A DNA stretch of 8,941 bases from Comamonadaceae bacterium (GTDB lineage: Bacteria; Pseudomonadota; Gammaproteobacteria; Burkholderiales; Burkholderiaceae_C), in the NCBI GenBank assembly GCA_947457975.1, contig CANGYC010000082.1:1-8941 (forward strand). The letters are read 5' to 3'. Below are positions 1-4,508 of the stretch, in pieces. A model generated the notes under the pieces. It was not told the origin of the DNA, searched no databases, and worked only from the letters and a program-made list of their open reading frames with translations. Every line of letters starts with the position of its first letter. The first letter of the stretch is position 1. Made by a program: the position numbers and the translations under genes.

Positions 1-3000
1 CGCGGATGCAGGCCGATGGTGGGCTCATCGAGCACGTAGCACACGCCCTGCAGGTTCGAACCCAGCTGCGCCGCCAGGCGAATGCGCTGCGCCTCGCCGC
101 CGCTGAGCGTGGGCGCGCCACGGTCGAGCGTGAGGTAGCCCAGGCCCACTTCTTCGAGGAACTCCAGGCGGCTCTTGATCTCGGGCACCAGGTCGCGGGC
201 GATGTCGGCCTCGCGGCCCACAAGCTCCAGGCGCTGGACCCAGGCGCGCACATCGCTGACTGAGAGGCGCGCAATGTCGGTGATGGACCAAGCCTCGCCG
301 CTGGCGCTTTGCAGGCGCACGGCGCGGGCGTGCTTGTTCAAGCGCGTGCCGGCGCAGCCAGGGCACGCCGTGTCGGCCACGTCGTCGATGTCGGGCTCGG
401 CAAAGCTTTGCTCGCGGCCTTTGTCTTTGTCGTCCTGCACCGAGTCGTCGAGCGCGCGGCGTTGCTCCTTGGTGAGCGCGACGCCCGTGCCCACGCAGTC
501 GGGGCACCAGCCATGCTTGCTGTTGTAGGAGAAGAGGCGCGGGTCCAGCTCGGCGTAGGAGGTGGCGCACACCGGGCAGGCGCGCTTGGTGGAAAACGCA
601 TGAATGTGGCCAATGCCGCGCGTGGAGGCGCCGGCCTCCATGGCGGCCTTCAGGCCCTCCAGCGGGGCCAGCACATGCACCACGCCCTTGCCGTGCTCCA
701 GCGCGGTCTTGAGGGCTGCGCGCAGTACGGGCTCGTGGGCGGGCAGCACCTGCAGGTCGGCCACGGGCAGCTCGATGGTGTGTTCCTTGAAGCGGTCAAT
801 GCGCGGAAAGCCGTTGGTGGGCAGGAACTCACCGTCCACCCGCAGGTGCGTGTAGCCGCGCGGGCGGGCCCAGTCGGCCAGCTCGGTGTACACGCCCTTG
901 CGGTTGATCACCAGCGGCGCCAGCAGCCCGATGTGCTGGCCTCGGTAGGCCTTGAGCAGCTGGGCGGCAATGCTGTCGCTGCTTTGCGGCATCACAGCCG
1001 CACCATCGTGCACGCAGTGCTGGATGCCCAGCTTCACGTACAAAAGCCGCAGGAAGTGCCACACCTCGGTGGTGGTGCCCACCGTCGACTTGCGGCCGCC
1101 GCGCGAGAGCCGCTGTTCAATGGCCACCGTGGGTGGAATGCCGTACACCGCGTCCACCTCGGGGCGACCGGCCGGCTGCACGATGCTGCGGGCGTAGGCG
1201 TTCAGGCTTTCCAGGTAACGGCGCTGGCCTTCGTTGAACAGGATGTCGAAGGCGAGCGTGGATTTGCCCGAGCCCGACACGCCCGTGACCACGTTGAACT
1301 TGCCGCGCGGAATGTCCACCGACAGGCTCTTGAGGTTGTTTTCGCGTGCGTTGACGATCTGGATGGCGTTCGGGGTCTGACCCCGATTTCCGGGGCTCGC
1401 TTCGGAACCGAAGGAGGCGCGCTTGCCCTCACCCCTGCCCTCTCCCAGGGGGAGAGGGGGCGAATACAGCGGCATCTTTTCGGCTGCGCCGTGCAGCTCG
1501 CCCATGGCCTCGGCGTACTCGCGCAGGGCCTGGGCGGTGTGGGAGCTCGGGTGCTGGCGCAGGGCTTCGGGCGTGCCTTCGGCCACCACCAGGCCGCCGG
1601 CCTCGCCGCCTTCGGGGCCGAGGTCGATCACCCAGTCGGCGGCGCGCACCACGTCGAGGTTGTGCTCGATGATGATGAGCGAATGCCCGGACTCCAGGAG
1701 CTTGCGCAGCGCGCGCATGAGCTTGGCAATGTCTTCAAAGTGCAGGCCCGTGGTGGGCTCGTCCAGCAGGAAGAGCGTGCCCTTGTGCTGGCGCAGGGCC
1801 AGCGGCTGGCGGCTCACGCTGCTGGGGATCTTGGGCAGCTTGGCCTTGGGTGCGCCCTCGCCCTTGCCGGCCAGAAAGCCCGCGAGCTTCAGGCGCTGCG
1901 CCTCGCCGCCCGAGAGCGTGGGCACGGGCTGACCGAGCTTCACATACTCCAGGCCCACGTCGATGATGGGCTGCAGCGCGCGCAGCACCTCGCGGTCGTG
2001 GCGAAAGAGTTCGCAAGCCTCGCTGACGGTGAGCTCCAGCACGTCGGCCACGTTCAGCGTGACGCGCTCGCCATTGGCGCGGTGGCGCTCAATGCCCACT
2101 TCCAGAATCTCGGGCCGGTAGCGCTTGCCGTCGCAATCAGGGCAGCGCAGGTACACGTCCGAGAGAAACTGCATCTCCACGTGCTCAAAGCCCGAGCCGC
2201 CGCAGGTGGGACAGCGGCCGTCGCCACTGTTGAAGCTGAACTTGCTGGGCGTGTAGCTGCGCTCCCGGGCCAGCGGCGCGTCGGCAAACAAATCGCGCAC
2301 GGCGTCCCAGGCGCCGACGTAGCTGGCGGGGTTGGAGCGCGCGGTTTTGCCAATGGGTGACTGGTCGACAAACACCACGTCATTGAGGTGGTCGGCGCCC
2401 AGCAGGCGGTCGTGCTCGCCCGGGGTTTCGGTGGCCTTGCCAAACTGGCGCAGCAGAGCCGGGGCCAGGATGTCCTGCATCAGCGTGGACTTGCCCGAGC
2501 CACTCACGCCCGTGACGCACACCAGGCGCTGCAGCGGAAACTCCACGCTGATGTTCTTGAGGTTGTGGCCGCGCGCGCCTTCCAGAATGAGGCGCGGCGT
2601 GTGGTCAGACACCGGGCGCTTCAGGCCCATGCCCACCTGCTTGCGGCCGCCCAGGTAGGCACCCGTGAGCGTGTCGGCGCGACGCAGCTCCTCGGGCGTG
2701 CCGTCAAAGACGATGCGCCCGCCCTTCTCGCCGGGGCCGGGGCCCATGTCGATCATGCGGTCGGCAGCCAGCATCACAGCCGGGTCGTGCTCGACCACCA
2801 CCAGGGTGTTGCCGGCATCGCGCAGGCGGTGCATGGCCTGGGTGATGCGCCCCATGTCGCGCGGATGCAGGCCAATGCTGGGCTCGTCCAGCACAAAGAG
2901 CGTGTTCACCAGGGAAGTGCCCAGGGCCGTGGTGAGGTTGATGCGCTGCACCTCGCCGCCTGAGAGCGTGCGGCTCTGGCGGTCCAGCGTGAGGTAGCCA

Positions 3001-4508
3001 ATGCCCACGTCGCAGAGGTATTTGAGGCGGGTCTGGATTTCTTCGAAGAGCAGCTTGAGGGCCTGCATTTCTCCCTCTCCCCCTGGGAGAGGGCCGGGGT
3101 GAGGGCCCGCGGTGCCAGGCTGGAATAGCAAATCAAAAAAGCGTCGCAGCCGGTCAATGGGCAGCTGCATGAGGTCGTGCAGAGACAGGCCCGGCAGAGC
3201 CTCCAGCTGCGCGCGGCTCCACTTCACGCCCACGGGCAGGAAGCGCTGGGCCGGCGGCAGCACCGCATCAGCCGCCGCCTTGCTGCCCAGGCGCCACAAG
3301 AGCGCATCGGTCTTCAGGCGCGCGCCACCACACACCGTGCAGGGCGTGTAGCTGCGGTACTTGGACAAGAGCACGCGGATGTGCATCTTGTAGGCCTTGC
3401 TCTCCAGGTACTCAAAAAAGCGATGCACGCCGAACCACTGCTTGTTCCACTGGCCCTTCCAGTGCGGCGAGCCCTTGATCACCCAGTCTTGCTGCTCGGG
3501 CGTGAGCTTGTACCAGGGCGTGTCGCGCGGAATGCCGGCGGTCTCGGCATGGCGCATGAGGTCGTCTTGCGCCTCTTGCCAGGCGGGGGTCTGCATGGGC
3601 TTGATGGCGCCCATGCGCAGGGTGAGCTTGTCGTTCGGGATCACGAGGCCCAGATCCACCCCGATGACGCGGCCAAAGCCGCGGCAGGTGTCGCAGGCAC
3701 CCATGGCCGAGTTGAAGGAAAAGAGCGAGGGTGTGGGCTCGGTGTAGCGCAGGTTGCTCTCGGGGCAATGCAGGCCGGTGGAGTAGCGCCACAGGGTTTC
3801 AGGGCGGTCCTGGCCTTGCACGAACACATTGAGCCGGCCGCCATGCTTGAGCGCCACCTCGATGGCCTCGATGGCGCGTGCCTTCTCGGTGCCCTGCAGG
3901 CGGAAGCGATCGGCCACCACATGCACGGCGCCGGCCTCCTGGAAGGCGGCCTCCGCTGGTTCGTGCACCCGCGTGAAGCCGCTGGCGGCCAGCCATTGCT
4001 CCAGCTGCTCGGTGCTGGTGCCCTCGGGCAGTTGCACGGGGAAGGTGAGGATGAGGCGCGGGTCGTCCTGCGCCGTGCGGGCCATCAGCTCGGCGTAGAT
4101 GGTCTCGGGCGTGTCGTGCCGCACGGCTTGCGCGGTGTCGCGGTCAAAGAGCTGGGTGGCGCGGGCAAAGAGGAGCTTGAGGTGGTCGTTGAGCTCCGTC
4201 ATGGTGCCCACGGTTGAGCGGGAGGAGCGCACCGGGTTGGTCTGGTCGATGGCAATGGCCGGCGGCACGCCCTCGACCTTGTCCACCGCAGGCTTGTCCA
4301 TGCGGTCCAGGAACTGGCGGGCGTAGGCCGAGAAGGTCTCCACGTAGCGCCGCTGGCCCTCGGCAAAGAGCGTGTCGAACACCAAAGACGACTTGCCTGA
4401 GCCGCTGGGACCGGTGACCACAGTCAGCTCACCCGTGCGGATGTCCAGATCGAGGTTCTTGAGGTTGTGCTGTCTGGCTCCGCGAATGCGGATCAGTCCT
4501 TGCGTCAT
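1..4508 (-). CDS. uvrA: Tandem ('dimeric-form') UvrA-family excinuclease ATPase, C-terminal part beyond the window edge
   Basis: UvrA is the ABC-type ATPase that finds damaged DNA in nucleotide excision repair and loads UvrB. One stop-free frame carries a whole UvrA unit plus the start of a second. Unit 1: Walker A GPSGSGKS (residues 33-40), signature LSGGEVQR (515-522), Walker B with VLDEPS (~539-544), second Walker [10 protein letters not shown] (667-675), CPTC/CPDC zinc module (766-769, 789-792), second signature LSGGEAQR (865-872), LLDEPTTG (914-921). Unit 2: Walker A GVSGSGKS (1076-1083), CPVC/CPDC (1311-1314, 1335-1338), signature 1468-1475, VLDEPTIG (1492-1499); it is cut at residue 1502. 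Ordinary UvrA is about 940-1000 residues, so the whole protein is probably about 1900. The ATG start follows an AAGGG SD at 4515-4519. Odd: repeat-derived peptides at 468-479, 1017-1028 and ~1041-1047, and CPES where CPxC is usual at 248-251. A separate normal uvrA elsewhere in the genome is likely but not visible here. Confidence 0.95.
1370..1386. repeat. Palindrome TCGGGGTC-T-GACCCCGA in the uvrA linker
   Basis: A perfect 8-bp inverted repeat around a single T lies about 40 bp from repeat copy B, in the same linker. It encodes roughly residues 1041-1047 (NRGQTPN) of the tandem UvrA. GGGGTCTGACCCC-type palindromes are, to my recollection, another common dispersed intergenic repeat in beta- and gammaproteobacteria. 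The match to a repeat family is inference; the palindrome itself is directly visible. Confidence 0.6.
1425..1458 (+). repeat. 34-bp palindromic repeat, copy B, inside the uvrA inter-unit linker
   Basis: It carries CCCTCACCCC (1426-1435), then the perfect stem CCCTCTCCC (1438-1446) and GGGAGAGGG (1450-1458) with a 3-base loop. It is inverted relative to copy A, so the uvrA frame reads it differently, as [12 protein letters not shown] (residues 1017-1028). It lies in the linker between the two UvrA units, where an insertion is easily tolerated. The surrounding frame stays open on both sides. Confidence 0.85.
3073..3106 (-). repeat. 34-bp palindromic repeat, copy A, inside uvrA
   Basis: A perfect 9-bp stem, CCCTCTCCC (3073-3081) and GGGAGAGGG (3085-3093) with a 3-base loop, is followed by GGGGTGAGGG (3096-3105). 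Its reverse complement matches 1425-1458 with one difference in 34 bases. Read in the uvrA frame it gives [12 protein letters not shown] (residues 468-479), between two helices just before the first ABC signature of unit 1. I recognise this as a repeat scattered in many proteobacterial genomes, usually between genes; other frames give the familiar [10 protein letters not shown] peptide. Confidence 0.85.

Follow-up and report, generated by a model that had tools for sequence, protein, structure and literature searches.

A tandem UvrA gene with in-frame palindromic repeats in two of its linkers, and recurrent inserts at the same places among its relatives

Palindromic Repeats Inside Genes

Insertions of ERIC or MITE elements in genes are known. 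The closest described counterparts of the elements treated here are the GTAG- or CGTC-tagged REPs, short palindromes, often in pairs, that have been found in frame inside genes including uvrA (in Thioalkalivibrio and in both uvrA genes of Opitutus terrae), uvrB and recB (PMC3733652). In that account linkers are proposed as tolerant places, repair genes are frequent hosts and a chance origin is doubted; genes of the same category are hit at different sites, the exception being recB in two Xanthomonas. The Rickettsia RPEs, as they are described there, are palindromic repeats in frame within proteins that are likely functional (PMC3733652).

The repeats of the tandem uvrA gene described below resemble the tagged REPs in being short palindromes, often paired and in frame, with uvrA among the hosts, and in-frame REPs in repair genes including uvrA are an already known kind (PMC3733652). 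They differ from those of PMC3733652 in that the element found here is without the GTAG or CGTC tag, as defined in that source, in that the host is a tandem UvrA, and in that several unrelated families occupy the same few linkers of one gene family in about ten named genera; in addition, the enrichment is measured here by comparison with genome totals and with control genes. As the initial annotation had it, the elements resemble Rickettsia RPEs in their predicted in-frame position within conserved proteins. Unlike the RPEs of that description, the present elements lack a CGTC end, reside in other bacteria, belong to several families in one gene and have a paired, BIME-like arrangement in related genomes. 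With BIMEs or REPINs, as generally understood and as far as PMC3733652 treats them, they share inverted pairs of short palindromes and a high copy number in some genomes. For a concentration in tandem UvrA, with several unrelated families at shared linkers, no earlier account was found in the open-access literature, which omits most subscription papers.

The Tandem uvrA Gene and Its Two Repeats

The stretch of DNA analysed, in the following called the window, is 8,941 nucleotides long and belongs to a genome (G000) of 2.31 Mb in 302 contigs that is 78% complete. The open reading frame at 3–4508 on the reverse strand encodes UvrA in two tandem halves (a UvrA-UvrA fusion), of which the window holds the first 1502 amino acids, the frame being open at the window edge. 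Its match to TIGR00630 reaches 1320 bits (curated cut-off 729.8) in four stretches, the second half being cut by the edge; full-length relatives have stop-to-stop open reading frames of approximately 1925–2166 amino acids.

Two REP-type copies of 34 bp lie in this gene. The copy at 3073–3106 on the reverse strand has the coding-strand head CCCTCACCCC and the predicted peptide GPHPGPLPGGEG (amino acids 468–479); it is situated in linker e (3060–3137, reverse strand; amino acids 458–483), ahead of the first LSGGE signature. The copy at 1425–1458 has the opposite orientation (forward strand) and reads on the reverse strand as the predicted peptide PPLPLGEGRGEG (amino acids 1017–1028), in linker g (1362–1481, reverse strand; amino acids 1010–1049) between the two UvrA halves. 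Both linkers are recurrent insertion sites. Each copy contains a perfect stem of 9 bp with a loop of 3 bases (3073–3093 and 1438–1458, respectively), both copies read in frame with the tandem UvrA, and after reverse-complementing one of them they differ at 1 of 34 bases. In a repeat search the two elements make up the longest inverted pair of the window (39 nt, 92%). The two in-frame elements, their opposite orientation and single mismatch, the 9-bp stems and the two different predicted peptides had been described exactly in the initial annotation. Taken alone, the two 56-base stretches fold unexceptionally (z = −0.86 and −1.46), so that what sets the element apart is its recurrence and not the energy of its fold. 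An AlphaFold model of amino acids 1–1050 was too poor for locating the inserts (mean pLDDT 51, pTM 0.30).

Our reading, to which we assign a probability of roughly 0.8, is that the window elements are in-frame copies of a dispersed palindromic repeat in two linkers of tandem UvrA, that each is likely one half of an inverted pair whose other half was lost, and that across the bacterial family inserts of this sort are likely acquired, shortened and swapped by the gene time and again.

A Dispersed Repeat Family

The repeat family of the window, here given the working name F1, is recognised by a 21-base head, CCCTCACCCCNRCCCTCTCCC. That the element is dispersed had been proposed from the window, and the count over the whole genome agrees with it: G000 holds 16 heads with up to 2 mismatches and none of the pattern read backward; with up to 3 mismatches there are 19, of which 12 are exact, and 2 in the backward control. 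Heads with up to 2 mismatches occur in 63 of 87 genomes of the genus (0–164 per genome). The backward pattern is absent from 75 of the 87, occurs once or twice in ten, five times in G090 and nine times in G004, and this last genome, the one with the most backward matches, has 73 F1 heads. The family is dispersed above chance. In being a palindrome of 20–40 nt with many dispersed copies it agrees with REPs and BIMEs; in genome listings and in relatives the copies are frequently arranged as close inverted pairs, those of the window itself being single.

Such repeats had been said to sit normally between genes, which is true of part of them. In G028, at least 12 of the 36 F1 heads examined (the genome has 41; five were left out) are inside recognised genes, namely four in uvrA, two in fdhA, two in an open reading frame for a caprolactamase-like alpha/beta fusion and one each in metG, xdhA, fdhD and a lipoyl ligase-type gene, while the remaining examined heads are intergenic, close to gene ends or within open reading frames without identification. 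The loci L197, L209, L211 and L201 of this genome correspond to metG, xdhA, the caprolactamase-like fusion and the lipoyl ligase-type gene, and in the first three the repeat lies between domains. In G000 none of the F1 copies beyond the two in uvrA could be assigned to a recognised gene within that part of the covering open reading frames that was searched.

No transposase could be linked to the F1 repeat. A RAYT-type gene (PF01797), which the initial annotation had brought up as a possible partner, is present in 21 of the 22 genomes searched, but none was found in the incomplete G000, and none of six RAYT-type loci examined has an F1 repeat beside it (up to 4 mismatches, 1.5 kb on each side where the contig allows). 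In this F1 may be unlike BIMEs or REPINs that are associated with a RAYT.

Empty Sites, Pairs and Probably Trimmed Pairs Among Relatives

In an alignment of 110 loci, the window's own included, most homologues are without the inserted residues (this set still included ten loci that were present twice under different names; they were taken out for the 140-gene set used below). Those that carry inserts are alike at the DNA level, and across the tandem uvrA gene family F1 is read in both orientations and in six strand/frame combinations. The notion that the inserts are ancestral UvrA residues, which would appear as the same residues in diverged DNA across the family, is contradicted on both counts: the likeness is at the DNA level, and the residues in this form are common to close kin only. 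Nothing in favour of it was found; the empty sites in most relatives and the reading in several frames rule it out, and its probability is practically nil. The view of the initial annotation that dispersed palindromes have been inserted thus agrees with the alignment.

In 21 look-ups at the DNA level (two of them without anchors), complete inverted pairs were seen at site e in G055, G056, G078 and G091 and at site g in G055, G078 and G088. A lone F1 repeat is found at site e in G089 and G007; at site g, G007 has a pair-like insert in a different arrangement and G089 another palindrome. Compared with G056, G089 is missing exactly 99 bp in frame, which is the right half of the pair, and the lone left repeat stays, much as in the window. 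Because full pairs occupy these very sites in relatives, the singles of the window are read as two pairs that were each trimmed to one half, a parsimony argument taken from relatives and not from an ancestor. Each window copy would then likely be what is left of an inverted pair, that at 3073–3106 being the left half.

Between sister genomes, entire inserts or in-frame parts of them are present in one and missing in the other, and inserts of at least 20 nt are seen in 12 of 14 sister-pair alignments; few borders are clean because the aligner split many inserts into pieces not divisible by three. The pairs at site e of L095 and L099, two Variovorax loci with a core nucleotide identity of 95%, are oriented differently. 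In linker e of three relatives of the window (L181, L184 and L191) the stems go from CCCTCTCCC/GGGAGAGGG to the CCCTCCCCC/GGGGGAGGG type, a paired change that could represent subfamily replacement or stem correction.

The single mismatch in 34 bases had been taken as a sign of recent or ongoing mobility, or of conversion between the two copies. This claim did not survive the comparison with the sister genome G054, in which both repeats are present at the same two places; as G000 and G054 are separated by a dS of 0.27, the window copies are not recent. The mismatch falls at a position that is variable throughout the F1 family, and of the 16 heads that G000 contains 12 are exact, so that any two copies resemble each other and their near-identity needs no conversion; it is best read as the family consensus. 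Recent conversion of the two copies is rejected in view of the filled sites of G054, the dS and the exact heads genome-wide, and for recent transposition or gene conversion in this strain, taken together, we see very little probability.

Recurrent Insertion at a Few Linkers

With up to 3 mismatches allowed, the set of 140 tandem uvrA genes contains 96 F1 heads, distributed over 40 genes and lying nearly all at four linkers, namely e (amino acids ∼458–483), g (1010–1049), h (∼1397) and j (∼1583, in the second half). On a FastTree of the core, parsimony requires at least 12 state changes at site e (23 genes with, 114 without and 3 not covered), 4 at g (8, 128 and 4), 3 at h (3, 130 and 7) and 15 at j (25, 57 and 58), rows without the site being excluded; in these counts gain and loss are not separable, 37 of the 137 inner branches of the tree are poorly supported and the genomes share ancestry.

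The inserts are not of one family. Among the 140 genes, 66 long inverted repeats score at least 14 (one is a run of N), compared with a single one after one codon shuffle per gene, and the other 65 comprise 24 of F1, 22 of F2, 12 of F3, one of F4 and six others (F2, F3 and F4 are working names, too). Palindromes of several unrelated families thus share the linkers of tandem uvrA, also in other genera, about ten named ones being involved. Across nine linkers 147 were classed as long (at least 6 amino acids above the median), and many of these hold sequence of no recognised repeat. A blast of linker inserts against the locus flanks gave matches for 17 of 147 queries, a set too small for use. Rfam, applied to nine sources, returned one match, a tRNA, and none on any insert.

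Inserts of Other Families

F2 is a hairpin with a conserved tip, CTCCTCAT..AAATCGTC, that occurs in Limnohabitans, Hydrogenophaga, Curvibacter and relatives. Its arms of 15–30 bp are near-perfectly complementary and differ from site to site, even among the four copies in L122. Examples, in either orientation and in frame, are found in L059 (4564–4665), L058 (6073–6204), L122, L061 and L124. In orthologous copies the arms remain recognisable and show, by eye, a small number of changes, some of them paired and some unpaired. F2 matches no Rfam family and no description of it was found in the open-access literature, from which most subscription papers are missing; the exact pattern had no match in viral contigs and a 40-base core none in plasmids.

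An exact pattern for one F2 variant has 12 matches in 7 of 399 genomes of the bacterial family and none in the backward control. They represent 11 distinct copies, as both matches in G353 come from the ends of two contigs with a 76-base overlap; ten are at tandem uvrA and one is in frame in fdhA, a gene identified via TIGR01591 and ferredoxin-like N-terminal matches. In G353 (L314, L319) the contig break falls exactly within an F2 hairpin of the uvrA gene; assemblies may therefore be fragmented by palindromes at this gene, with more inserts hidden as a result. A blast of one F2 copy gave matches solely inside uvrA in G099 and G098 and none in G101. With a looser descriptor there are 27 copies in 70 named uvrA genes (414 kb) vs. 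one in the flanks (351 kb); the latter, beside uvrA in L066, is within no long open reading frame with a named function. In 400 kb of G099 two adjacent F2 copies lie at one place outside uvrA, covered by no open reading frame of more than 120 amino acids. Full exclusivity of F2 to uvrA is ruled out by the copies in L066 and G099; because the looser descriptor finds copies outside, F2 is to be called concentrated in tandem uvrA and not exclusive to it. In fdhA, the formate dehydrogenase alpha gene (L311, 1144–3024; L196, 346–3630), unrelated palindromes lie between the same domains, F2 in G190 and F1 in G028, and fdhA is possibly a second acceptor gene.

F3 consists of pairs with conserved arms and a variable spacer in 11 other tandem uvrA genes; its half-sites number 46 in uvrA (25 rows) vs. 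2 in the flanks. The window has one such half-site, the palindrome GGGGTCTGACCCC at 1372–1384 in linker g, which G089 carries in degraded form. At amino acid ∼1029 of uvrA in G089 (L019), also in linker g, there is a palindrome with 29-bp arms outside all named families. Another insert, of 84 bp or 28 codons and of yet another family, distinguishes L042 from L027, with the flanks intact: at L042 (2081–2164) it is in frame in uvrA of G004 and it is absent there from the sister genome G033. This family has at least 40–45 matches in each of four genomes of the genus, 8 in G100 and one weak match in G000. Its fold is not better than that of shuffled sequences (z = 0.07), and it is therefore regarded as a repeat but not as a clear palindrome.

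Enrichment, Control Genes and the Weighing of Explanations

For 70 of the 87 genus genomes a tandem-uvrA locus was available. With up to 2 mismatches these genomes have 1351 F1 heads in total, of which 64 are inside tandem uvrA, spread over 27 genomes, vs. 1.86 expected by length. For the 140 loci the corresponding figures are 96 heads per 805 kb of uvrA vs. 2 per 504 kb of flanks. Ordinary UvrA has no F1 head in 20 loci from repeat-bearing genomes (0.46 expected), and none was found in the best-scoring 30 loci of MutS (0.45 expected) or of RpoB (0.69 expected), a choice that could favour insert-free copies. Since the expected counts are small, these zeros are informative mainly by contrast with the tandem gene and less so by contrast with the average of the genome. 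As to a bias from the choice of loci, each of the 48 RpoB matches listed for positions 2–1238 nevertheless has a length of exactly 4077 bp, and the full-length MutS matches in the list are 2541–2589 bp long.

Is the accumulation of inserts then just a matter of tolerance? Random insertion everywhere, with the linkers of a large protein permitting in-frame survivors, would account for inserts that occupy variable linkers of a gene whose core is under strong purifying selection, and also for the inter-domain regions of fdhA, metG, xdhA and the caprolactamase-like fusion being hit in G028. It should not, however, lead to a density above that of non-coding DNA. The linkers contain 2.78 F1 heads per kb vs. 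approximately 0.041 per kb if all copies of the genomes were packed into non-coding DNA, the share of which is assumed to be 12%; this comparison is conservative because the linker length includes the inserts. Ordinary UvrA shares the fold, and yet its 20 loci are free of F1 heads. Tolerance alone thus seems insufficient and is considered unlikely as the whole explanation, with the reservations that the non-coding share is assumed and that tandem uvrA was picked because of the finding, fdhA, metG and xdhA being hit too. The excess suggests that the linkers are preferred targets or retain inserts for unusually long, beyond what tolerance would give. Relaxed constraint on the core of the tandem gene is ruled out by dN/dS values of 0.034–0.094 in six pairs and by a core identity that matches that of ordinary UvrA (medians of 85.6 and 84.2%, respectively, in 189 pairs).

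A selected function, be it regulation of the uvrA mRNA by the hairpins or a use of the linker peptides to the protein, appears improbable to us. Near-perfect stems are kept, and paired changes are seen in the repeats of the G055 type and in the F2 arms. Yet orthologous arms have unpaired changes, too, repeat subfamilies could account for the paired ones, and the inserts belong to unrelated families, are found in either orientation, encode different peptides and are missing in many species.

Under the preferred reading of repeated gain, trimming and exchange, the element would arrive by insertion, probably in a single-stranded hairpin form. Frame-breaking insertions would be purged, as may be expected of a gene under such strong purifying selection, and in-frame deletions would then trim pairs to singles. 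Because six strand/frame combinations are open, the surviving inserts would become new linker peptides. More tentatively, and at clearly less than even odds, tandem uvrA (and more weakly fdhA) may in this bacterial family truly act as a site at which hairpin DNA is captured, with unrelated palindromes being steered to, or selectively kept in, a few linkers. The conserved tip of F2 with new self-complementary arms of 15–30 bp at each site would in that case point to arms made at insertion, e.g., by fold-back copying.

Implications

The survey of tandem uvrA reveals in F2 a hairpin element whose tip is conserved and whose arms are specific to each site. The inserts of the gene constitute a natural series of in-frame peptide insertions in a conserved ATPase. 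And the question raised in PMC3733652 of why REPs are found in repair genes can now be tested as one of insertion bias vs. retention, because a single repair gene can be followed through about ten named genera, the ordinary paralogue serving as internal control.
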